A stretch of 64,000 bases of DNA from Streptomyces sp. NBC_01689 (GTDB taxonomy: Bacteria > Actinomycetota > Actinomycetes > Streptomycetales > Streptomycetaceae), in contig NZ_CP109592.1 in the NCBI RefSeq assembly GCF_036250675.1, forward strand, positions 4,340,001 to 4,404,000, in the 5' to 3' direction. The position numbers and the translations under genes were made by a program. Every line of letters starts with the position of its first letter. Positions within the stretch are counted from its first letter, which is position 1. Shown piece by piece: positions 1-11,077 of the stretch. The notes below the pieces were generated by a model. That model was not told the origin of the DNA. It saw only the letters and a program-made list of their open reading frames with translations, and ran no database searches.

Positions 1-607
1 CGGGGCCGGTCCGGGCGCCGGACATCCGCTCGGGCGCGGTGTACTCGGGCGAGCCGACGAAGGAACCGCTCTCGGTGAGGGTGGTCGCCCCCGCGACCTG
101 GGCGATGCCGAAGTCGGTGAGGACGACCCGGTCGGTGCCCGCCTCCATCAGGACGTTCGCGGGCTTGAGGTCACGGTGCAGGATGCCCGCGTCGTGCGCG
201 CGGCGCAGCGCGCCGAGGAGGGCGATGCCGATCCGGGCGGCCTCCCTCGCGTCGACCGGGCCGTCCGCCGAGATCCGTTCGGCGAGCGAGCCGCCGTCGA
301 TCAACTCCATGACGATGTAGGGGCGTTCGGCCTCCTCCACCACGTCGTGCACGACGATGATGTGCGGGTGGTGGAGCTGGGCGACCGCGCGGGCCTCGCG
401 CAGGGTGCGATCGCGTTGCTGCAGGGCCTCCTGGGCGGAGAGCGAGTCGTCGAGGGGAAGTTCCTTCACCGCGACCTGCCGGTTGAGCAGTTGGTCGGTG
501 GCCCGCCAGACGACGCCCATGCCGCCCCGCCCGATCCTGGCCTCCAGCCGGTAACGGCCGGCGATCACGCGGACGTTCTCCCCCTGGGTCCCCATACGCC
601 CCATCAT
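1..607 (-). CDS. Hanks-type Ser/Thr protein kinase, partial (C-terminus beyond left edge)
   Basis: The N-terminal ~202 residues of a eukaryotic-like Ser/Thr kinase are visible; the rest lies outside the window. The glycine loop IGRGGMG (about residues 25–31), the VAVKEL lysine (K48), the HRDLKPANV catalytic loop (144–152) and LTDFGIAQV (163–171) are all intact, so this is expected to be an active kinase that phosphorylates Ser/Thr on cytoplasmic targets. The visible part ends in the activation segment and APE-like motif. Three in-frame ATGs (607, 604, 595) could start it. None has a strong well-spaced ribosome site and the kinase fold begins soon after all three, so the start is uncertain by four residues. 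It is the first of four neighbouring kinase genes on this strand. Confidence 0.9.
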   Translation of the reverse strand, partial: MMGRMGTQGENVRVIAGRYRLEARIGRGGMGVVWRATDQLLNRQVAVKELPLDDSLSAQEALQQRDRTLREARAVAQLHHPHIIVVHDVVEEAERPYIVMELIDGGSLAERISADGPVDAREAARIGIALLGALRRAHDAGILHRDLKPANVLMEAGTDRVVLTDFGIAQVAGATTLTESGSFVGSPEYTAPERMSGARTGP

Positions 608-679
608 GCCGCACCGGATGGACGCCCTCCGTGACGGCGACCGGCCGACTTCGCCCCCGTGGCCGGGGATCACCCGCGC

Positions 680-2335
680 TCACCGCTCCTGGAAACTCCG
701 CAGGATCGAGTCGAACTGCTTGCCGGTGGTGGCCCACTCGTCGGCCGGCGAGGCCTCGTAGAGGGCGTACTCGGTGCCGTCACCGGTCATGTAACCGACG
801 TCGATCGCGCGGTAGGGCCCCGGGAAGTAGTGCGGGGGGTCCTTGGCCAGCGCGTTCCACGTGTACTCCCAGCGGACGCCCGGCTGGTCGCGGAAGAGCT
901 CTTCCTTGAGGCTCAGCCGCTGGTAGTCCTGCAGCCGCCCCGAGATCGTGTGGTCCAGGCCGCTCATGTGGTCGTACGAGGTGCTGAAGTCCGGCGCGGT
1001 GTCGACGGCGACCCGCACCAGGTGCTTGCCCTTGTCGGGCGAGTAGTCGACCTGCCGGAGGCCGTCCTTGTCGATGGAGACGGACCGCGTCCACCCCTCG
1101 GGCAGGGAGACGCTGAAGCCGAACGGGTCGTGGATCCGCTCCCAGCCGGCGGGAACCCCCGTCCGACCGTCCTTGTCACCCGGTGTGGCACCGGCCCCGG
1201 AACTGGCGCTCGGAGTCGGAGCCGGCGTCGACGGTCCGGAGGCGGAGTCGCCCGGACCGCCCGTGCCGAAGTGCTGGAGCGCGACCGCGCCACCGCCGCC
1301 GACGACCGCCGCGAGGGCGACGACCAGGGCGACCGTGCGCAGCCGGTGCCGCTTCGGCGGCGGGGTCGCGGTCCCGTTCGCCGCCGCCTGATACGAGGTG
1401 GTGGTGCCCGTGTGCGCGCGGGTCCCGGTGCCGGTCCCCGTCACTGTGGTGTCGTGTTCCACCCGTCCCGCCACCGCGTGCGCCCGCGTCGCGTCCGACA
1501 GTCGTCCCGCCGCCGCCTCGGCGAGCATCTCCTCGGCCTGCGCCGCGCTGGGCCGCTCGGCCGGATCCTTGCGCAGCAGCGCGGCGAGTACGGGCCCGAG
1601 CGCCCCCGAGTTGACCGGTTCGGCGGGTTCCTCCTCGACGACGGCCTGCATGGTGCCGATGGGCGAGGTGCGGCGGAACGGCGACCTGCCCTCCACCGCC
1701 GTGTACAGCGTGGCGCCGAGTGCCCACAGATCGGACGCCGGGCCCGGGTCGTGGCCGCGCACCCGCTCCGGGGCGAGGTAGTCGACCGAGCCGACGATCT
1801 CACCGGTGCGGGTGATGGTCGTGTCGCCCTCGACCTGCGCGATCCCGAAGTCCGTGAGCAGCACCCGCCGGTCGGAGGAGAGCAGGACGTTGCCCGGCTT
1901 CACGTCCCGGTGCAGCACCCCGGCCGTGTGCGCGGCGCGCAGCGCGCGCAGCACCCACAGACCTATCCGCGCCGCCTCGGCCGGTTCGATCCGCCCCTGC
2001 TCGTTGACCGCGTCGGCCAGCGAGTTGCCCTCGACCAGCTCCATGACTATCCACGGCCGGTTGTCGTGGTCCAGCACGTCGTGAACGGTCACGACGGCCG
2101 AGTGGTTGATCCGGGCCGCGGCCCGCGCCTCCGCGTGGGTACGGGCCAGGAGCACGGCCCGGTCGCTCTCCGTGACGTACAGCGCGGCCGTCAGTTCCTT
2201 GACCGCGACCGCGCGGTGCAACACCTCGTCGTGCGCGCGCCACACGCGGCCCATGCCACCGCTGCCGATGGATTCGACAAGTCGGTAGCGGCCCGCGAGG
2301 AGCAGGCCCTGCATCTGATTCACGTTTCCCCGCAA
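680..2335 (-). CDS. Transmembrane Ser/Thr protein kinase
   Basis: A 551-residue PknB-type receptor kinase. The cytoplasmic kinase domain covers about residues 14–275, with loop GSGGMG, K46 in VAVKEL, HRDVKPGNV (142–150), LTDFGIAQ (160–167) and APERVRG. A Thr/Gly-rich juxtamembrane linker precedes one transmembrane helix at about 333–353. The remaining ~200 residues should be extracellular: a Pro/Ser/Thr-rich spacer, then a globular domain starting near GFSVSLPEGW that resembles the tails of the two kinases upstream at 2482 and 6107. All key catalytic residues are present. A second in-frame ATG at 2314 (MQGLLLAGRY) is a possible alternative start. The gene lies 72 bp from the truncated kinase and is probably co-expressed with it. 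Confidence 0.93.
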   Translation of the reverse strand: MRGNVNQMQGLLLAGRYRLVESIGSGGMGRVWRAHDEVLHRAVAVKELTAALYVTESDRAVLLARTHAEARAAARINHSAVVTVHDVLDHDNRPWIVMELVEGNSLADAVNEQGRIEPAEAARIGLWVLRALRAAHTAGVLHRDVKPGNVLLSSDRRVLLTDFGIAQVEGDTTITRTGEIVGSVDYLAPERVRGHDPGPASDLWALGATLYTAVEGRSPFRRTSPIGTMQAVVEEEPAEPVNSGALGPVLAALLRKDPAERPSAAQAEEMLAEAAAGRLSDATRAHAVAGRVEHDTTVTGTGTGTRAHTGTTTSYQAAANGTATPPPKRHRLRTVALVVALAAVVGGGGAVALQHFGTGGPGDSASGPSTPAPTPSASSGAGATPGDKDGRTGVPAGWERIHDPFGFSVSLPEGWTRSVSIDKDGLRQVDYSPDKGKHLVRVAVDTAPDFSTSYDHMSGLDHTISGRLQDYQRLSLKEELFRDQPGVRWEYTWNALAKDPPHYFPGPYRAIDVGYMTGDGTEYALYEASPADEWATTGKQFDSILRSFQER

Positions 2336-2481: not shown

Positions 2482-5400
2482 TCAGCCGGTGACCCGGTAG
2501 GTCGCCGACGCCTGTTCGTACAGCCGGGTCACCTCGTCCGTCTCGGCCTCCGGGCCGCGCACCTGGACGATGTGGTAGCGCCCGCCCTGGACGACGACGA
2601 GGTTGCGGACGTACAGCTCCTGCCCCGCCGAGGTCTGCCAGGTGAACTGCCCCTCGGCCATGGTCCGTCCACCGACGTCGATCCGCCGCATGCCGCTGGA
2701 CGTCGCCCACGTCGAGTCGCGGAACGGCTGCAACTCGCTCTCCCGCTCCCGCTGGTAGGTCAGCGGATCGCTGCCGTAGGTCGCGGTGCTGTCCCGGCCG
2801 GGTACGACGATGAGCTCGAAGTCGCCGTGGGAGTAGACGACCTGACCGCGCCCGTTCTTGGGCGAGCGGTCCCAGCCGTTCGCCACCGCGACCTGGAAGC
2901 CGGCGGAGTCCTTGCGCAGGGTGAAGCCCGACGGGACACCGGGGGCGTTGCTCCCGGACTCCGGCGAACCAGGCTTCTCCGAAGGGCTCTTGTCGCCGCC
3001 CGGAGAGGTCTGGTCGGGCCGCGGTTCGCTGCTCGCGCTTCCGTCGGCGCCCGCGGAGTTCTGCGGTGCGGGGCTCACCTGTCCGGCGGAGTCGGCCGGA
3101 CCACCGTCGGAACCGTTCGCCCGGTCGTTCTTCGGCATGAAGACCATCGCGTAGGCGACCGCCGCGACCAGCAGGAGCAGGACCAGGAGGACCAGGTTGC
3201 GCCCGAGCCGTCGGGGCTTGTCCCGCACGGACCGTCCCGCCGGGCGGGCGGGGCGGTCGCTCCTGGCCCGTTTGTGACGGGCGTGCGGGCTGGTCGCGGG
3301 CAGCCCGGCGCGGCGCCGGCGGACGAGTTCGCCCCTCCTGCGCACGATCGGGAGCCTGCTCGGGTCGACCGGGGGCGCCGAGACGACGTGCGCGCCCGCC
3401 TCGGGCTCGGGCGCGGACCGCACCAGCGAGCGCAGCCAGCCGCGCAGTTCCTCGAAGTCGAGCCGCTCCGTGGGGTCCTGACGCAGCAGCGACTCCACCA
3501 CGGGCCGCAGGGGTCCGCACTCCTCCGCGTACGCGGGCGGTTCGGCGCAGACCAGTTGCACCAGTTCGGCGGTGCTCTCCTCCGGGTAGGGGGCGTGCCC
3601 CTGTACCGCCCGGAAGAGGAGGGCGCCGAGCGCCCACAGGTCGGTCGCGGGGCCGATCGGCGCCGCCAGCTGCCAGTTCTCGTGCACCGGGCCGGCCTGC
3701 TCCGGCGCCCAGCGCTCGGTCACCGGACCGACGACCGCCATCCGCGCCTGCCGGGCCCGCTCCGCGGCGAGCGCCGTGGCGGGACCGCGGCGCGGCGGCG
3801 CACCGGCGACGAGTTCGTCCCAACGGCCCTTCGGCGGAACGGGAACGGCGGACTGCTGCCGCCCCCGCACGAGGGTGGCCGGGTCGGCGCCGGGAAGCTC
3901 CGGGACGATCCGGCCGTGCCCGGCGCCGCCGCCGGGGAGTGCCGTACGCGCGGGGCCGGTGCCGTCGCCGGAGCGGAAGCCTCGGCCGAAGTCCTGGCCG
4001 GTGTCGCGACCGGTGTCGCGACCGGTCTCCCGGCCGGCGCCCTGGCCCGTGCCGTCGCCGTATCCGTAGCCGTAGTCGTATCCGCCAGTGGCGCCGGGCT
4101 CGACGCCCTGCCCGGGGCCGTGGCCCGCGCCCCGGCCCGCCGTGTACGCGTCTCCGCGGCCGGTGCCGTGTCCGGGGCCCGGGCCGAGGCCGACACCCTG
4201 GTCCGCGCTGTGACCGGCCTCCTGGCCGAAGCCCTGGCCGGGAACCTGTCCCGCGTGGTGGCCGGTGCCCTCACCGGCACCCTGGCCGAAGCCGGGGCCC
4301 GCGTGGGTGCCCACGCCTCGACCCGTGTCGGGGCCGGTGCCGTGGCCGGTGTCGTGCTCGCTTCCCCGGCCTTCACCCTGACCGAAACCCTGGCCCTCGC
4401 CGAGACCCTCGCCCGTACCCCGGCCGAAGCCCTGCCCCGTGTCCCGGCCGAATCCCTGACCCGTGTCCCGGCCGGGGACCTGGCCAGGGACCTGGCCGAA
4501 GGCCCGAGCCGTCCGGTCCGCTTGCCTGCCGGTGGTGTGGTCGGCGTCCTGGCCCGGACCCGGGGCGGTGCCCTGGCCGTCGGGGCCCCCCGTGCCGGGG
4601 CGGGGCTGCGCACCGTGCCAGGCCCTGGTGTGCGCCACTCCGTACGGGTCGGCGATCTGACCGGGCGGCGGGGTCTCCGGCCGCTGCTCCACGATGTGTC
4701 CGGACGCCTGGGCGGGCGGAGCCGCGGCGTCGGCCGGCGGGGCCGGGCGGGGTGCGGGCAGGGCGGCGGGGGCACCCCGCTGCTGTTCGTGCACACGGGC
4801 CGCGGCGCGCGCTCCGGCGCGGTACGCGGCGATGGCTCCGGCCCGCGCCGCCCGCGCGTCGCCCCCGGCCTCGATCGCCCTGCGGGCCAGGGCCGCGCTG
4901 CCCGCCGCGGGCGCCTCTCCGACGGGCGTGCCGTTCTCCGCACGTGCCTCGATCGCGGCCCGCCGCGCGGCCTCCGCGTCGATTCCCTGAGCACCGGCGA
5001 CCACGGCACCGAACGTGCCCCCGGGACTCGTGGCCCCCGGAACTCCGGAACCGCTCACGCCCCGCGAGGCTGCCCCGCCCGGCGAACCGGCGTTGCGCAC
5101 CTGCTCGGTGCCGCCGCCCTCACTCCCGGGAGCGCCCGGACCCCGGGGGATCTGCGGGACCTGCGACACCTGGGAGACCTGCGACACCTGGGGGACCCGC
5201 GTCCCCGCCCGGCCCGGGGCTCCTGTCGCTCCGGGTGCCCCCGGTCCTCCCGGCGCGCCCTCCACACCCTCCGGACCGTCGAAGTCCCTTACCGGCACCG
5301 GGTCGTACCCGCACAGCGCCTCCTCGGCGGCTCCGGCCGCCAGCCCGGTCAGCATCACCCGGCCGTCGTCGCAGACGAGCACCGTGCGCGCGGTGATGTT

Positions 5401-5901
5401 GCGGTGCACCCACCCGTGCGCGTGCAGCACCCGCAGCGCGGTGAGGACGTCCGCGGCGACCTCGGCGGCGCGGTAGGGGCTCAGCGGTTTCTCGGCGAGC
5501 AGCGCTGCCAGCGGCCGCGCGGGCACCAGTTCGCTCACTATCCACAGCGAGCCGCCTTCGGCGAACACGTCGAAGACCTGGTCGAGTCGGGGATGGTCGG
5601 GGATCTGGGCGGCGGCCTGCGCGGCCTCGATCGCCCGCCGCACCGCCGGTTCGGCCGGCCGCCGCGTGGTGCGCGCGGAGGGGCGGCGCACCCCGCCGTC
5701 CCGTGCCACGAACCCCTCGGGCAGCCCGTCCGCGTCGAGGACCTCGGCCTCGACGATCTCCGGCAACGGCACCTGGCGGACCAGGACTTCCTGCCCGCTG
5801 TACGTGTCGAACGCGCGGCTCTCGGCGAACTCGTACTCGTCGGACGGCGGCAGCGGCAGGCGATAGCGGTCGGCCAGTACCCGACCCGCGTACTCGTCCA
5901 C
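2482..5901 (-). CDS. Giant kinase-like membrane protein, probable pseudokinase with low-complexity insert
   Basis: An 1139-residue protein with a split kinase fold. The N-lobe and catalytic-loop region lie at about 1–195 and the C-lobe (ATDLWALGALLF onward) at about 752–825; a Gly/Gln/Thr/Pro-rich insert of about 530 residues separates them. Catalytic signatures are lost. The ATP-site lysine is R42 (VLVRQV), HRD is HRN (166–168), DFG is replaced by TGL (185–187), and no glycine loop is visible. A basic stretch, one transmembrane helix (about 902–921) and an extracellular Pro/Ser spacer with a globular tail starting GFQVAVANGW follow. I chose the GTG at 5901 because GGGGGAGG sits just upstream; an in-frame start at 6000 would add 33 residues unlike a kinase N-terminus. 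It probably acts as a scaffold or regulator of neighbouring kinases (inference). Confidence 0.88.
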   Translation of the reverse strand: MDEYAGRVLADRYRLPLPPSDEYEFAESRAFDTYSGQEVLVRQVPLPEIVEAEVLDADGLPEGFVARDGGVRRPSARTTRRPAEPAVRRAIEAAQAAAQIPDHPRLDQVFDVFAEGGSLWIVSELVPARPLAALLAEKPLSPYRAAEVAADVLTALRVLHAHGWVHRNITARTVLVCDDGRVMLTGLAAGAAEEALCGYDPVPVRDFDGPEGVEGAPGGPGAPGATGAPGRAGTRVPQVSQVSQVSQVPQIPRGPGAPGSEGGGTEQVRNAGSPGGAASRGVSGSGVPGATSPGGTFGAVVAGAQGIDAEAARRAAIEARAENGTPVGEAPAAGSAALARRAIEAGGDARAARAGAIAAYRAGARAAARVHEQQRGAPAALPAPRPAPPADAAAPPAQASGHIVEQRPETPPPGQIADPYGVAHTRAWHGAQPRPGTGGPDGQGTAPGPGQDADHTTGRQADRTARAFGQVPGQVPGRDTGQGFGRDTGQGFGRGTGEGLGEGQGFGQGEGRGSEHDTGHGTGPDTGRGVGTHAGPGFGQGAGEGTGHHAGQVPGQGFGQEAGHSADQGVGLGPGPGHGTGRGDAYTAGRGAGHGPGQGVEPGATGGYDYGYGYGDGTGQGAGRETGRDTGRDTGQDFGRGFRSGDGTGPARTALPGGGAGHGRIVPELPGADPATLVRGRQQSAVPVPPKGRWDELVAGAPPRRGPATALAAERARQARMAVVGPVTERWAPEQAGPVHENWQLAAPIGPATDLWALGALLFRAVQGHAPYPEESTAELVQLVCAEPPAYAEECGPLRPVVESLLRQDPTERLDFEELRGWLRSLVRSAPEPEAGAHVVSAPPVDPSRLPIVRRRGELVRRRRAGLPATSPHARHKRARSDRPARPAGRSVRDKPRRLGRNLVLLVLLLLVAAVAYAMVFMPKNDRANGSDGGPADSAGQVSPAPQNSAGADGSASSEPRPDQTSPGGDKSPSEKPGSPESGSNAPGVPSGFTLRKDSAGFQVAVANGWDRSPKNGRGQVVYSHGDFELIVVPGRDSTATYGSDPLTYQRERESELQPFRDSTWATSSGMRRIDVGGRTMAEGQFTWQTSAGQELYVRNLVVVQGGRYHIVQVRGPEAETDEVTRLYEQASATYRVTG
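3980..4500. repeat. Degenerate coding repeats (GxGQ/DTG) in the pseudokinase insert
   Basis: This stretch encodes about residues 468–640 of the pseudokinase. It is built from loosely repeated units such as GQGFGRDTG, GTGP and GAGHG, giving DNA-level repetition of short GC-rich words on both strands. A second short array nearby (about 5150–5193) encodes a repeated QVS/QVP tripeptide. Such tracts are prone to slippage and length variation between strains. They are protein-coding low complexity and not a CRISPR array, since there are no regular spacers. Confidence 0.7.
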
Positions 5902-6106: not shown

Positions 6107-8374
6107 TCACGACTTCGGCTGGAACGTCTTCGTCAGCGTCTGCCAGGTGTCCTTGCGCAGCTCGCTGTCCCAGGCGGAGGCCTTCGCCGTGTACATCAAC
6201 GCATACCCCTGATGGGAGTTGACAACGAATCCGCGGTCGATCGACCGGTACGTCGTGCCCCCGTCCTGGTAGGTGAACTCCCAGTCGGCGGTGTTCCAGC
6301 CGCGGTAGTCCACCTTCTCTATGCGGATCTTCTGGTACTGCGGCCGTACCATTCCCCGCTCCTGGTTCCGCCAGTCGGCCACCGGGTCGTCCTTGGGCGT
6401 CGAGGTCCAGCCCACGAGGAGCTTCTGCCCGTCGGGACCGGTGAAACGCGCACCCGCGCTGTCCGTGGACCGGTAGGACCACCCCTTGGGCAGCCCGATC
6501 GAGAAGCCCTGGGCCCCGTGGTAGGTCGACACGGCGGTGGACCCCGCGGAACCGGACTCCTTGCCGCCGCCGCCCGTACCGCCCTTGTCGTCCGAGTTGC
6601 TCCCGTCGCCCGAGGCGTCCGCGCTGGGCGTGGTGCCCGAGGCGCCGCTCCCGTCCGTCCCGGAGGAGCCGTCCTTCTTGTCGTCGCTGTCGGTGTGCTC
6701 GCCCTTGCTCGCGTCCTTGCCGCCACCGCCCGCGTTCGCCCCGCTGGAGGCGCTCGCCTTGGTGTCGCCGCTCTTGCCGCCCTTCGCGCCGCTGCCGTCA
6801 CCGCCGCCGAGGGTGAGGGCCAGAACCGTCCCGACCACGACGAGCGCCAGGACCACCGCGATGATGATCAGGGTTCGCCGCGGCACCACATCGGTGAGCG
6901 GCGCCCTCGGTGCGGGCCGCGGGGGCCGCTCGGGCGCCACGGGCCAGCCGGAACCCTGGGAACTCCCCGAGCCCGAACCGCTCGTGCCGGCCGTGCCCGT
7001 CACCCGCGTCGCGTCCGCCGGACCGGCCGTGTCCTTCGTACCGGTCCCGCCGACGGGACCGGAGTTCAGCCCCACCGCCACGCCGTCGCGGGCGCCCGCC
7101 TTGCGGGAGACGTCCGCCGCTCCGGTGCGCGGGCCCGGTGCGACCGCGCCCGACGTGCCCGCACCGGCGGTCCCGGTCCTGCCGTCCGCGGACTTCGACG
7201 GCGTCGCGCCCGCCGACACCGGCGGAGCCGCCGGCCGGGGAACCGTCGGGGACTCGGCGGCCGTGCCCGCCGCGCCCTCGGTGCTCGCCGCGCCCGTGCC
7301 CGCCGTACCGGTGGACTTGGAGCGCGCCGTCGCCGCGGCGGTGGCCGCGCCGGCCGCCGAGGCGGCCTTGCGCACCGAACGCAGCGCGCCACGGAACCGC
7401 TCGCCGGCCTCCTCGCCCCGCCTGCCGCCGGAACTCCCCTTGCCCGACTCGTCGTCCGGCAGCGGCGGCAGTGACACGACCTTCGTCGCGTCCACCGGCT
7501 CCGGAACGGCCGGCCGCGGTTCGGGGGCGCGGATCACCTCGTTGAGCATCGCCCGCGCACGCTCGTTGTCGAGCCGCTGCTCGGGGTCCTTGGCGAGCAG
7601 CCCGTAGATCACGCTCTCCAGCGGACCCGCGTTCTTCGGCTGCTCCACGGGCTCGGTCATGACCGCCGTGAGCGTCGCGATCGCGGAGCCCCTGTCGTAC
7701 GGAGGGACGCCCTCCACCGACGCGTACAGCAGCCCGCCCAGCGACCACAGGTCGGCCGCGGGCCCGGGCTTGTGGCCGCGCGCCCGCTCGGGGGAGATGT
7801 AGGAGGGCGCGCCCACGAGCATGCCGGTCGACGTGATCGACGGGTCGCCCTCCACCTGGGCGATGCCGAAGTCGGTCAGCACGACCCGGCCGTCGTCGGA
7901 GATCAGCACGTTCGACGGCTTCACGTCGCGGTGCAGGATGCCCTCGCGATGCGCCGACCGCAGCACGTCGAGTATCGCGAGCCCCACCTCCGCGGCGCGC
8001 TTGGGTGTGAGGAGGCCGTCCTCACGGATGACCTCGGCGAGCGACTTGCCCTCGACGAGTTCCATCACGATCCACGGTCTGTTGTCCTCGTCGACCACGT
8101 CGAAGACCGTCACCGCGCCGTTGTTGCGAATGCGCGCGATCGCCTTGGCCTCACGCAGGGTGCGCGTGATCAGCCGCCGCTTCTCGTCCTCGTCGATGCT
8201 CGACGGGAACCTCAGCTCCTTGACGGCGACCGTGCGGCCCAGCGTTTCGTCCTGGGCCCGCCAGACCGTGCCCATGCCGCCGCGGCCGAGAACATCCCCC
8301 AGCCGGTACCGCCCGGCGAGGAGACGTTCGCTCTTGTCCTGACGGGATGCTCCCGCCCGCTCCGCCTCCGACAT
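6107..8374 (-). CDS. Transmembrane Ser/Thr protein kinase
   Basis: A 755-residue receptor-type kinase with intact machinery: GRGGMG (30–35), K52 in VAVKEL, HRDVKPSNV (148–156), LTDFGIAQ (166–173) and SPERARG. The kinase domain (about 20–280) is followed by a ~210-residue Ala/Gly/Thr/Pro-rich linker, one transmembrane helix (about 501–522), an acidic Gly/Ser/Asp/Lys-rich extracellular spacer and a tail domain beginning GFSIGLPKGW. The ATG at 8374 is chosen because GAGGGG lies four bases upstream; an in-frame ATG at 8386 has a poorer site. It is the first gene of the minus-strand kinase row. The 205 bp to the next gene could hold a second promoter, so one transcript is not assured. Confidence 0.93.
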   Translation of the reverse strand: MSEAERAGASRQDKSERLLAGRYRLGDVLGRGGMGTVWRAQDETLGRTVAVKELRFPSSIDEDEKRRLITRTLREAKAIARIRNNGAVTVFDVVDEDNRPWIVMELVEGKSLAEVIREDGLLTPKRAAEVGLAILDVLRSAHREGILHRDVKPSNVLISDDGRVVLTDFGIAQVEGDPSITSTGMLVGAPSYISPERARGHKPGPAADLWSLGGLLYASVEGVPPYDRGSAIATLTAVMTEPVEQPKNAGPLESVIYGLLAKDPEQRLDNERARAMLNEVIRAPEPRPAVPEPVDATKVVSLPPLPDDESGKGSSGGRRGEEAGERFRGALRSVRKAASAAGAATAAATARSKSTGTAGTGAASTEGAAGTAAESPTVPRPAAPPVSAGATPSKSADGRTGTAGAGTSGAVAPGPRTGAADVSRKAGARDGVAVGLNSGPVGGTGTKDTAGPADATRVTGTAGTSGSGSGSSQGSGWPVAPERPPRPAPRAPLTDVVPRRTLIIIAVVLALVVVGTVLALTLGGGDGSGAKGGKSGDTKASASSGANAGGGGKDASKGEHTDSDDKKDGSSGTDGSGASGTTPSADASGDGSNSDDKGGTGGGGKESGSAGSTAVSTYHGAQGFSIGLPKGWSYRSTDSAGARFTGPDGQKLLVGWTSTPKDDPVADWRNQERGMVRPQYQKIRIEKVDYRGWNTADWEFTYQDGGTTYRSIDRGFVVNSHQGYALMYTAKASAWDSELRKDTWQTLTKTFQPKS

Positions 8375-9370
8375 GCGTCCCCTCATGCAACCCGCCCTGA
8401 CAGAGCCTTCATTGTCCCTCACCCGACAAGCGCTCAGCGCCCAGGGTGCCCCTCGGAAGGGGTCCCCCCGGTGCCGGGCCCGTGGCGTCCCGCATGGTGG
8501 ACGGCGAGAAAGAAGGACCGCCGATGCCACCGCGCCGGACACCTCGGACACTCCTGGTCATACCACTGTCCCCGACACTCGCGGTACCGGGCCAGGCCGC
8601 CCTTTCCGGCCCGAACTCGCCCCTCCTTCCCCCTTCTTCCCACCGCGCCCAGCGGGTTCCTCCGCTCTCACATCACCCCGACCGGGGCCCCGGGGACCCT
8701 CCCGCCGTCCGCGCGGACAAGCTCGCCGTCGCCCGCTCCCCCCGAAGCCCTAGACCGCGCGAGCCTTCGGGCGCCGACACCGACCCCTTCGCCCCCCTCT
8801 CGTCTCCCCCGTCTCCTCCGTCTGTCCCGTCTCTCCCGCCTGTCGCGTCCCCACAGTCCCCGCCGCGCCCGTCGGACCGTCAAACTCCGCCTCCCGGACC
8901 ACCCGTGACGCCCTCGGCCGTCCCATGACCCGGGGCGGAGCCCCGGCCGCGGACCCTGCCGTCCTCCGACGGGACGGGCCCATGCTCCGCCGCCGGACGG
9001 GACGTCACCCGCGCCGGCCACTTCCACGCGGGCGGCGTCACCACGTCGCCCGTCGCGACCGTGGTGCCCCGACCGGCCGCCGGACACCCACTGTCGCGGT
9101 CCGACCCGGTGGACACCCATCCCGAGGAGGGACGACGGCCGCGTCCTCGGCGGCCGTGCGCGCACCACCACCGCCGACCGACGCGACGTCCTCGCCCGCG
9201 CGCGAGCCCGGGCGAGATCGCCGGTCCCGGCCCGGAATCCGCCCTGCCCTCGGCCGAGTTCCACACCCGCACCCGCACCCGCACCCGCACCCGCACCCGC
9301 AGAACGGACGGGATCCGAGCAGATATCCCGGATCAATACACCCGTTCGAGTGATGCCGCCGGAGCCGAGG
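8375..9370. other. Long intergenic region between glpD and the kinase row, no gene supported
   Basis: About 1 kb without a convincing gene. All open frames here are Arg/Pro-rich and lack domain signatures and good ribosome sites. The right part carries a six-copy hexamer array (9265–9300). The left end must contain the promoter of the kinase gene starting at 8374, but I see no confident -35/-10 pair. It also holds the 3' flank of glpD. Confidence 0.6.
9265..9300. repeat. Tandem hexamer repeat, (acccgc)x6
   Basis: Six perfect consecutive copies of acccgc on the plus strand lie about 65 bp downstream of the glpD stop codon. It reads as a simple sequence repeat likely to vary in copy number. 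No coding role is apparent. Confidence 0.9.
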
Positions 9371-11077
9371 TCAGAGGGGCACGATGTCCGGGGCGCCGAG
9401 CCGTGCCGCGTCGGCCGTCAGGTCGTCGGGCTGGCGCTGCGACTCCCGCTCGGCCTCGACCCGCTTCTCATAGTGCTCGACCTCGCGCTCGATCTGGTCC
9501 TTGTCCCAGCCGAGGACCGGCGCCATCAGCTCGGCCGCCTCCCGGGCACTGCGCGTACCGCGGTCGAAGGTCTCGATAGAGATACGGGTCCGCCGGGTCA
9601 GCACGTCGTCCAGGTGCCGGGCCCCCTCGTGCGAGGCGGCGTAGACGATCTCGGCCTTGAGGTAGTCCTCGGCGGCCGGCAGCGGCTCGCCCAGCGCCGG
9701 GTCCGCGGCGATGAGGTCGAGGACCTCCTCGGCGAGCGCCCCGTAGCGGTTCAACAGGTGTTCCACCCGGACCACATGGAGTCCGGTGCGCTGGGCTATG
9801 CGTGCCCGCGCGTTCCACAGGGCCCGGTACCCCTCCGCGCCGAGCAGCGGGGTGTCCTCGGTGACGCACTCGGCCACGCGCTGGTCGAGTCCGTGCACCG
9901 CCTCGTCCACCGCGTCCTTGGCCATCACCCGGTAGGTGGTGTACTTGCCGCCCGCCACGACCACGAGTCCCGGCACGGGATGGGCCACGGTGTGCTCGCG
10001 CGACAGCTTGCTGGTGGCGTCCGACTCCCCGGCGAGCAGCGGCCGCAGTCCCGCGTACACCCCCTGGACGTCGTCGCGGGTCAGCGGCACCGAGAGCACC
10101 GAGTTCACGTGCTCCAGCAGATAGTCGATGTCCGCGCTGGACGCCGCCGGGTGTGCCTTGTCGAGGTCCCAGTCGGTGTCCGTGGTGCCGATGATCCAGT
10201 GCCGTCCCCAGGGGATGACGAAGAGGACGGACTTCTCGGTGCGCAGGATCAGGCCGGTCGAGGAGTTGATCCGGTCCTTCGGTACGACCAGGTGGATGCC
10301 CTTGGAGGCACGGACGTGGAACTGGCCCCGCTCGCCGACCATCGCCTGGGTGTCGTCCGTCCACACCCCCGTGGCGTTGACCACCTGCTTGGCGTGGATC
10401 TCGTACTCGCCGCCGCCCTCGACGTCCTGCACCCGGGCGCCGACCACCCGCTCGCCCTCGCGCAGGAAGCCGGTCACGCGGGCGCGGTTGGCGACCGTCG
10501 CGCCGTACGCCGCCGCCGTGCGCACCAGGGTGGCCACGTAGCGGGCGTCGTCCATCTGCGCGTCGTAGTACTGCAACGCGCCGACCAGCGCGTCCTTCTT
10601 CAAGGCGGGGGCGACGCGCAGGGCCTTGCCGCGGGAGAGATGACGGTGGGTGGGCAGTCCGCGTCCATGGCCGCTCGTCATCGACATGGCGTCGTAGAGG
10701 GCGACGCCCGATCCCGCGTACAGCCGCTCCCAGCCCTTGTGCTGGAGGGGGTAGAGGAAGGGCACCGGCTTCACCAGGTGGGGTGCGAGCCGCTCCAGGA
10801 GGAGTCCGCGTTCCTTCAGGGCCTCGCGCACGAGGGCGAAGTCGAGCATCTCCAGATAGCGCAGACCGCCGTGGATCAGCTTGCTGGACCTGCTCGACGT
10901 GCCGGAGGCCCAGTCGCGGGCCTCGACCAGGCCGGTGGACAGGCCGCGTGTCACAGCGTCGAGCGCGGTGCCCGCACCGACCACGCCCGCGCCCACCACC
11001 AGCACGTCCAGCTCGCGCTCGGCCATTCCCGCCAGGGACTCGGCACGCTCCGCCGGCCCCAGTTTCGCTGTCCTCAC
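9371..11077 (-). CDS. glpD: Glycerol-3-phosphate dehydrogenase (FAD-dependent)
   Basis: A 568-residue GlpD/GlpA-type flavoenzyme that oxidises sn-glycerol-3-phosphate to dihydroxyacetone phosphate and passes electrons to the membrane quinone pool. The FAD dinucleotide motif GAGVVGAGTALD lies near residues 29–40 and is followed by the family signature region RSSKLIHGGLRYLE. The substrate and FAD-binding middle and the C-terminal helical domain seen in bacterial GlpD are present at normal length. The GTG at 11077 is preceded by GGGAGG at six bases. It stands alone on its strand, with regulatory sequence between it and the divergent dehydrogenase homologue. No glycerol kinase or facilitator gene lies beside it. 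Confidence 0.95.
   Translation of the reverse strand: MRTAKLGPAERAESLAGMAERELDVLVVGAGVVGAGTALDAVTRGLSTGLVEARDWASGTSSRSSKLIHGGLRYLEMLDFALVREALKERGLLLERLAPHLVKPVPFLYPLQHKGWERLYAGSGVALYDAMSMTSGHGRGLPTHRHLSRGKALRVAPALKKDALVGALQYYDAQMDDARYVATLVRTAAAYGATVANRARVTGFLREGERVVGARVQDVEGGGEYEIHAKQVVNATGVWTDDTQAMVGERGQFHVRASKGIHLVVPKDRINSSTGLILRTEKSVLFVIPWGRHWIIGTTDTDWDLDKAHPAASSADIDYLLEHVNSVLSVPLTRDDVQGVYAGLRPLLAGESDATSKLSREHTVAHPVPGLVVVAGGKYTTYRVMAKDAVDEAVHGLDQRVAECVTEDTPLLGAEGYRALWNARARIAQRTGLHVVRVEHLLNRYGALAEEVLDLIAADPALGEPLPAAEDYLKAEIVYAASHEGARHLDDVLTRRTRISIETFDRGTRSAREAAELMAPVLGWDKDQIEREVEHYEKRVEAERESQRQPDDLTADAARLGAPDIVPL

Follow-up and report, generated by a model that had tools for sequence, protein, structure and literature searches.

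A window of 64,000 nucleotides from Streptomyces sp. NBC_01689 (contig NZ_CP109592.1, positions 4,340,001 to 4,404,000) carries, within a row of protein kinase genes, a gene for a membrane-anchored pseudokinase with a very long insert in its activation loop. The protein appears to belong to the already published ActPs2 family; what is new here is its linkage to the kinase PkaH, a conserved motif within the loop, and a dead state that is independent of the insert. The parts of the gene are listed below by window position.

2482..5901, minus strand: pseudokinase gene, GTG start at 5901, stop at 2482-2484, 1139 amino acids
5776..5787, minus strand: beta3 motif VLVR, residues 39-42, Lys replaced by Arg42 (from sequence)
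5380..5406, minus strand: pseudo-catalytic loop HRNITARTV, residues 166-174, with HRN at 166-168 (from sequence)
5338..5349, minus strand: TGLA where (T)DFG would stand, residues 185-188 (from gapless alignment)
3790..5292, minus strand: variable activation-loop insert, residues 204-704 (from alignment of 53 homologues)
4792..4854, minus strand: motif M1, RAARAGAIAAYRAGARAAARV, residues 350-370 (from alignment and model)
4636..4668, minus strand: motif M2, PPGQIADPYGV, residues 412-422 (from alignment)
3406..3789, minus strand: conserved pre-APE segment, APE and C-terminal lobe (C-lobe), residues 705-832 (from alignment)
3139..3207, minus strand: transmembrane helix, residues 899-921 (from sequence and model)
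2485..2934, minus strand: ectodomain, predicted by model to have a PsbP/LpqN/DcrB-like fold, residues 990-1139

Residues 1-203 hold the N-terminal lobe and the beginning of the C-lobe; between the C-lobe and the transmembrane helix runs a basic juxtamembrane stretch, which is conserved. An earlier note on this DNA, made from the letters alone, had described the C-lobe, membrane helix and extracellular tail as retained, and all three could be located in the protein.

Loss of the catalytic residues

The same note had singled out this protein as the one member of an otherwise intact kinase row to have lost its signature motifs, and this is borne out. The beta3 Lys is replaced by Arg, the alphaC Glu by Ala and HRD by HRN, HRDxKxxN has Thr in place of both its Lys and its Asn, and the Gly loop is absent, whereas the three neighbouring kinases keep DFG and an intact catalytic loop (HRDVKPSN in the PkaH-like, HRDVKPGN in the PkaD-like and HRDLKPAN in the PkaI-like kinase). 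The change first read as DFG to TGL needs refinement, for in a gapless alignment the T falls on the Thr that precedes DFG, and D-F-G itself has become G-L-A. The VAIK Lys, HRD Asp and DFG Asp of a catalytic eukaryotic-type serine/threonine protein kinase (eSTPK) of the PknB type are thus all missing, and judged by its motifs the status of the protein as a pseudokinase is strongly supported. Pfam matches its kinase domain as two separate stretches, which are two of the three weakest among the 31 Pfam kinase matches in the source genome. A 593-residue frame elsewhere in that genome (G000:C1:5079488-5079742) likewise gives a partial, sub-threshold kinase match (profile positions 56-140).

The dead state is common to all loci seen. 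A first protein search returned 2676 relatives, and all organism-named relatives among the best 120 listed are Streptomyces. All members of an aligned set of 61 loci (60 fetched plus the window) have Asn in place of the catalytic Asp and Gly in place of the DFG Asp and lack the alphaC Glu; the uniform Asn is a new observation. Orthologues with intact VAIK, HRD and DFG, for which the earlier note had advised looking, were found neither in these 61 loci nor among 80 named loci selected from 499, of which 76 were readable. The pseudo-catalytic surface is kept across the family as H-R/G-N-x-T/S, with one listed protein (P0226) carrying HGR, and eight of the 61 loci, the window not included, have an Asp directly ahead of the aligned DFG position and read DGL (L069, L070, L079, L081-L084, L087).

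The full-length model, built with 53 close homologues, is poor over the kinase part (mean predicted local distance difference test score, pLDDT, 45.8), and the kinase core was therefore read from a short-loop homologue. That model shows a kinase fold matching PknA/PknB-type kinases, in which the catalytic residues are intact. A weak C-lobe match was also found to 5loh (Greatwall/MASTL), an active eukaryotic kinase with an insert of about 500 residues between DFG and APE.

The window protein resembles ActPs2, as described by O'Boyle et al. (2025; PMC12599244, the available text), in every feature tested against that description, a comparison with the description rather than with the family constraint profile. 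Shared are the beta3 Lys to Arg and HRD to HRN changes, the loss of DFG (described for ActPs2 as a deletion), the C-terminal transmembrane helix and an insertion between beta3 and alphaC, about 28 extra residues by hand count against the PkaD-like kinase of the window and about 32 in ActPs2. A disordered loop of 250 residues, of unclear function, is reported in about 90% of ActPs2 members; the loop of the window protein is extended as well, to about twice that length. The available text of that review contains no Streptomyces, no PkaH linkage, no conserved loop motif, and no insert-less or ectodomain-less form. MviN of Mycobacterium tuberculosis (ActPs3) is, by the same text, also a membrane protein of wall synthesis with a dead kinase domain, but its family has a deletion in the activation loop where the window protein has an insertion. 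MviN was not among the kinase and fold matches listed, which says nothing about relationship.

O'Boyle et al. proposed, from an AlphaFold3 model, that ActPs2 proteins hold ATP through R42 and R177. On this basis the window protein could be a non-catalytic switch in which Arg42 and Arg172 hold ATP and binding alters a partner surface. Both arginines are present, R42 under the identical number and R172 as the equivalent of R177 by our reading, but the protein lacks the Gly loop as well as the alphaC Glu and the DFG Asp, and across the 61 loci the beta3 residue is Arg in 37 (Glu or Asp in 14, His in 6, Gln in 1, Thr in 1, 2 unresolved) and the second site is Arg in 28. That the two arginines are not family-wide is a new observation, and such a switch strikes us as improbable.

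The activation-loop insert and its conserved motifs

From the DFG equivalent to APE the window protein spans 547 residues (543 by a second measure), about 500 of them extra; the second measure gives 273-585 residues, median 391, in 119 of the 120 closest homologues listed. The earlier note had called the insert rich in G, Q, T and P. Residues 204-704 are indeed rich in G (25%) and P (10%), but A (16%) and R (8%) are commoner than Q and T (6% each). A sequencing artefact is excluded by a homologue from another source (P0002) with 88% identity over the whole query, and by a GC content at third codon positions that stays at 0.81-0.89 through the insert.

The insert varies in length and contains short tandem repeats. 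Across the 53 homologues, mean majority-residue conservation falls from 0.95 in residues 1-203 to 0.34 in 204-704 and rises again to 0.98 in 705-735 and 0.99 in 736-832; these values, like those from the 120 listed homologues, are upper bounds because these are the nearest relatives. It is the position of the insert that is conserved, and not its length or most of its sequence. The DFG-to-APE span is 230-416 residues in 76 named loci. By genus (numbered g1 and so on here) it is 256-547 in g1, that of the window (22 loci), 165 in g13 (1), 47-52 in g7 (13), 32-84 in g11 (9) and 61-64 in g17 (3), as estimated with a rough pattern that gave no length for 8 of the 61 loci. Only the genus of the window has the long insert in this sample. 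Genus names and loop length do not map cleanly, since a record named Kitasatospora aureofaciens (L170) has the long insert and three short-loop proteins (P0166, P0168, P0188) carry the name Streptomyces sp. Members that have no insert are equally dead, which shows that the dead state does not depend on the insert. An LPEGFxARDGG-like segment lies between beta3 and alphaC in the window protein (residues 59-70) and within the activation-loop insert in L110.

The insert is not featureless. Amid its drifting sequence, 18 of the 21 columns of M1 are invariant among the 53 homologues and the other three are at least 90% conserved, so that conservation windows over residues 350-370 reach 1.00 (rounded); this block is a new observation. 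M2 forms a second conserved block and EAARRAAIEARA (residues 310-321) a third. A slightly loose form of M1 occurs in 119 of the 120 closest homologues listed. Within the genus of the window it is present at 22 of 23 loci, the remaining one being cut by a contig end, and the 38 loci from other genera all lack it. Of the 80 named loci, 72 have it, four have an altered M1 (L132, L140, L168, L190), and in the remaining four (L172, L173, L181, L188) the sequence is cut short or masked or has no N-terminal part in frame. The exact 20-residue M1 peptide is found in 84 of 101 loci, encoded by 81 different DNA sequences, and its codons change freely at synonymous sites and almost never at second positions. 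This codon pattern shows selection on M1 at the protein level, and a DNA-level element as the cause of the conservation is ruled out because third codon positions vary. The region is predicted, with modest confidence (~63), to form a helix at residues 349-374, and in the window protein neither M1 nor M2 contains Ser or Thr. A 110-residue query around M1 matched, in the source genome, itself and one 18-bit hit (E 0.02), which was taken as chance.

The size, variable length and tandem repeats of the insert might suggest a decaying relict without function. This is very hard to reconcile with the conservation of residues 1-203, the C-lobe and the near-invariant M1, with synonymous change and almost unchanged second codon positions, or with the finding of an accepted pseudokinase row in 139 of the 150 family genomes searched, and the relict reading was rejected on conservation and codon pattern. 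The suggestion in the earlier note that a flexible insert matters gains strength from the conserved motif inside it.

Linkage to PkaH

In the window, the pseudokinase gene lies between catalytic kinases in the order glpD, PkaH-like kinase, pseudokinase, PkaD-like kinase, PkaI-like kinase:

9371..11077, minus strand: glpD, syntenic anchor
6107..8551, minus strand: catalytic kinase of the PkaH type (SCO4775-like), immediately upstream of the pseudokinase gene; its start codon is uncertain
680..2335, minus strand: PkaD-like (SCO4777-like) catalytic kinase, downstream
1..679, minus strand: PkaI-like (SCO4778-like) kinase, truncated at the edge of the window

We take glpD to be the neighbour of the corresponding Streptomyces coelicolor cluster beyond PkaH as well. 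The nearest upstream same-strand kinase is of the PkaH type (HRDVKPSN) in 59 of the 61 loci, and the two exceptions (L061, L082) are located at the ends of contigs. From this upstream kinase to the aligned pseudokinase start there are 8-645 bp, with a median of 175 in the genus of the window; the scan covered kinases, small non-kinase genes in the gaps lying outside it. The link to PkaH is the tightest in the neighbourhood, because a second kinase upstream of PkaH is found in 16 of 59 loci and 6 of 61, L061 and L082 among them, have no glpD.

The family beyond the long-insert proteins was followed with an insert-less homologue as query. Its edge is sharp: of 143 matches, the best 120 of which are listed, 109 score 897-134 bits and the remaining listed ones 74 bits or less, and the genera listed include Streptacidiphilus, Kitasatospora, Peterkaempfera, Phaeacidiphilus, Actinacidiphila and Streptantibioticus. 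Among the 150 genomes, 101 had a match at E <=1e-30 and a Kitasatospora query added 38 accepted genomes; 141 have an accepted PkaH and 138 have both. In 133 of these 138 the pseudokinase lies just downstream of PkaH on the same strand, the two matches being 607-2122 bp apart, and in the other five the two are on separate contigs. The named loci agree, with linkage in 74 of 74 that have both genes and the other 6 of 80 cut or masked. All these counts measure conservation and not independent events, because the genomes are related and the synteny is inherited.

Of the four unpaired genomes, one (G042) is taken up below. In G035 a diverged 442-residue frame directly after PkaH (L191:5217-6542) is weakly similar to the family (83 bits, against 56 to PkaH) and is perhaps a fast-evolving pseudokinase. 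In G131 the pseudokinase follows a PkaH-like kinase spread over two frames (L194:7596-10289), which looks like a frameshift or sequencing error, and in G156 the contig ends inside PkaH.

A proposed non-catalytic partner of PkaH

The sporulation cluster of S. coelicolor comprises SCO4775 (pkaH), SCO4776, SCO4777 (pkaD), SCO4778 (pkaI) and SCO4779 (pkaJ) (PMC4416010, here and below the available text). The window gene is the positional orthologue of SCO4776, at the same place between PkaH and PkaD, as compared through the sequences of relatives rather than that of SCO4776: S. tricolor, S. violaceorubidus, S. ardesiacus and S. coelicoflavus have the same gene order and the same dead motifs. In the published work SCO4776 is treated as an active eSTPK; the available text of the literature on SCO4775, SCO4776 and SCO4777 nowhere calls it a pseudokinase, and a search for Streptomyces pseudokinases gave no title on this gene among the matches listed. 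The PkaH literature also includes PMC9600765 and PMC9823044.

A second copy of SCO4776 leads to aberrant, vancomycin-sensitive spores, as do extra copies of pkaH, pkaD or pkaJ, and these effects were interpreted as overbalanced kinase activity (PMC4416010). Should SCO4776 share the dead state of its relatives, the published "kinase dosage" effect could not reflect direct catalysis and would have to arise by titration, scaffolding or allosteric action. Together with the PkaH link, a dosage effect without catalysis makes a non-catalytic role as partner of PkaH the best reading, and this role is probably in spore-wall building. We would put a non-catalytic, membrane-anchored partner of PkaH at about an even chance. 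The kinase fold with its pseudo-catalytic surface would provide a protein-binding face, the ectodomain would sense or assemble in the envelope, and the Streptomyces insert would serve as a flexible arm on which helix M1 (and M2) could dock a partner. The scaffold or allosteric partner proposed in the earlier note is in this way supported in part, by the dead state and the synteny, and its partners, there all the adjacent kinases, can be narrowed to PkaH by genomic linkage.

As modelled, the ectodomain is similar to PsbP and, less closely, to LpqN, a protein linked to cell-envelope biogenesis by its PDB title. By profile comparison it is related to the ectodomains of PkaD and PkaH, direct BLAST giving E values of only 4e-5 and 0.2, respectively. 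It is optional in the family: in four genera (g7, g8, g15, g18) the protein ends 20-26 residues past the start of the transmembrane helix. The protein could instead scaffold wall enzymes of the Streptomyces spore wall synthesizing complex (SSSC; MreC, PBP2 and others) without PkaH, or compete through its ectodomain for an envelope ligand. The ectodomain model and the spore-wall dosage phenotype (PMC4416010) fit this alternative, which we nevertheless regard as rather unlikely; it leaves the PkaH linkage unexplained and the ectodomain is absent from homologues in those four genera.

Another view of the locus is that the protein is a phospho-scaffold, as mycobacterial MviN is described to be (PMC12599244, available text): neighbouring kinases would phosphorylate its insert or juxtamembrane tail, an FHA-domain protein would be recruited to the wall machinery, and the proximity to PkaH would reflect kinase and substrate only. 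The long exposed loop and the conserved basic juxtamembrane segment suit this model, but M1 and M2 are without Ser or Thr in the window protein (conserved phosphosites elsewhere were not searched for) and the available text of an S. rimosus phosphoproteome does not name the gene. We consider it unlikely, if still worth keeping in mind.

Several observations weigh against the partnership with PkaH. It rests on genomic linkage rather than direct interaction, the synteny is inherited, and glpD shares it in 55 of 61 loci. One genome (G042) is a real exception, with PkaH and no pseudokinase found after it. The deadness of SCO4776 is judged from relatives rather than from its own sequence, and with a one-residue gap in the alignment a metal-binding Asp might persist in the eight DGL loci. 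The existence of ectodomain-less, short-loop branches means that neither ectodomain nor long insert is required for a role shared by the family. In S. coelicolor, moreover, the five cluster genes are transcribed separately, SCO4776 is constitutive while pkaH was undetected by reverse transcription PCR (high pkaH in microarrays is cited in the same paper), and a two-hybrid analysis with a PkaI fragment names, in the main text, the kinases PkaA and PkaD and not SCO4776 (PMC4416010).

A bolder form of the PkaH partnership, which we offer tentatively, is that PkaH and the pseudokinase form an obligate pair across Streptomycetaceae, in which the idle activation loop has become a docking arm of 250-550 residues carrying M1 and the output depends on stoichiometry rather than on any catalysis by the dead member. 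If true, this would explain why a single extra copy of SCO4776 damages the spore wall. For ActPs2, a family without an assigned function, the locus adds a genomic position, a partner candidate, an existing phenotype and a genetically tractable organism, and a loop extension called disordered and unclear becomes a candidate docking element in which M1 offers a target of 21 residues. The cytosolic linker of PkaH (gene at 6107-8551) contains, inside a variable stretch, an Arg-rich segment FRGALRSVR in which each column is at least 75% conserved among 23 loci of the genus, and which is a possible counterpart of M1.
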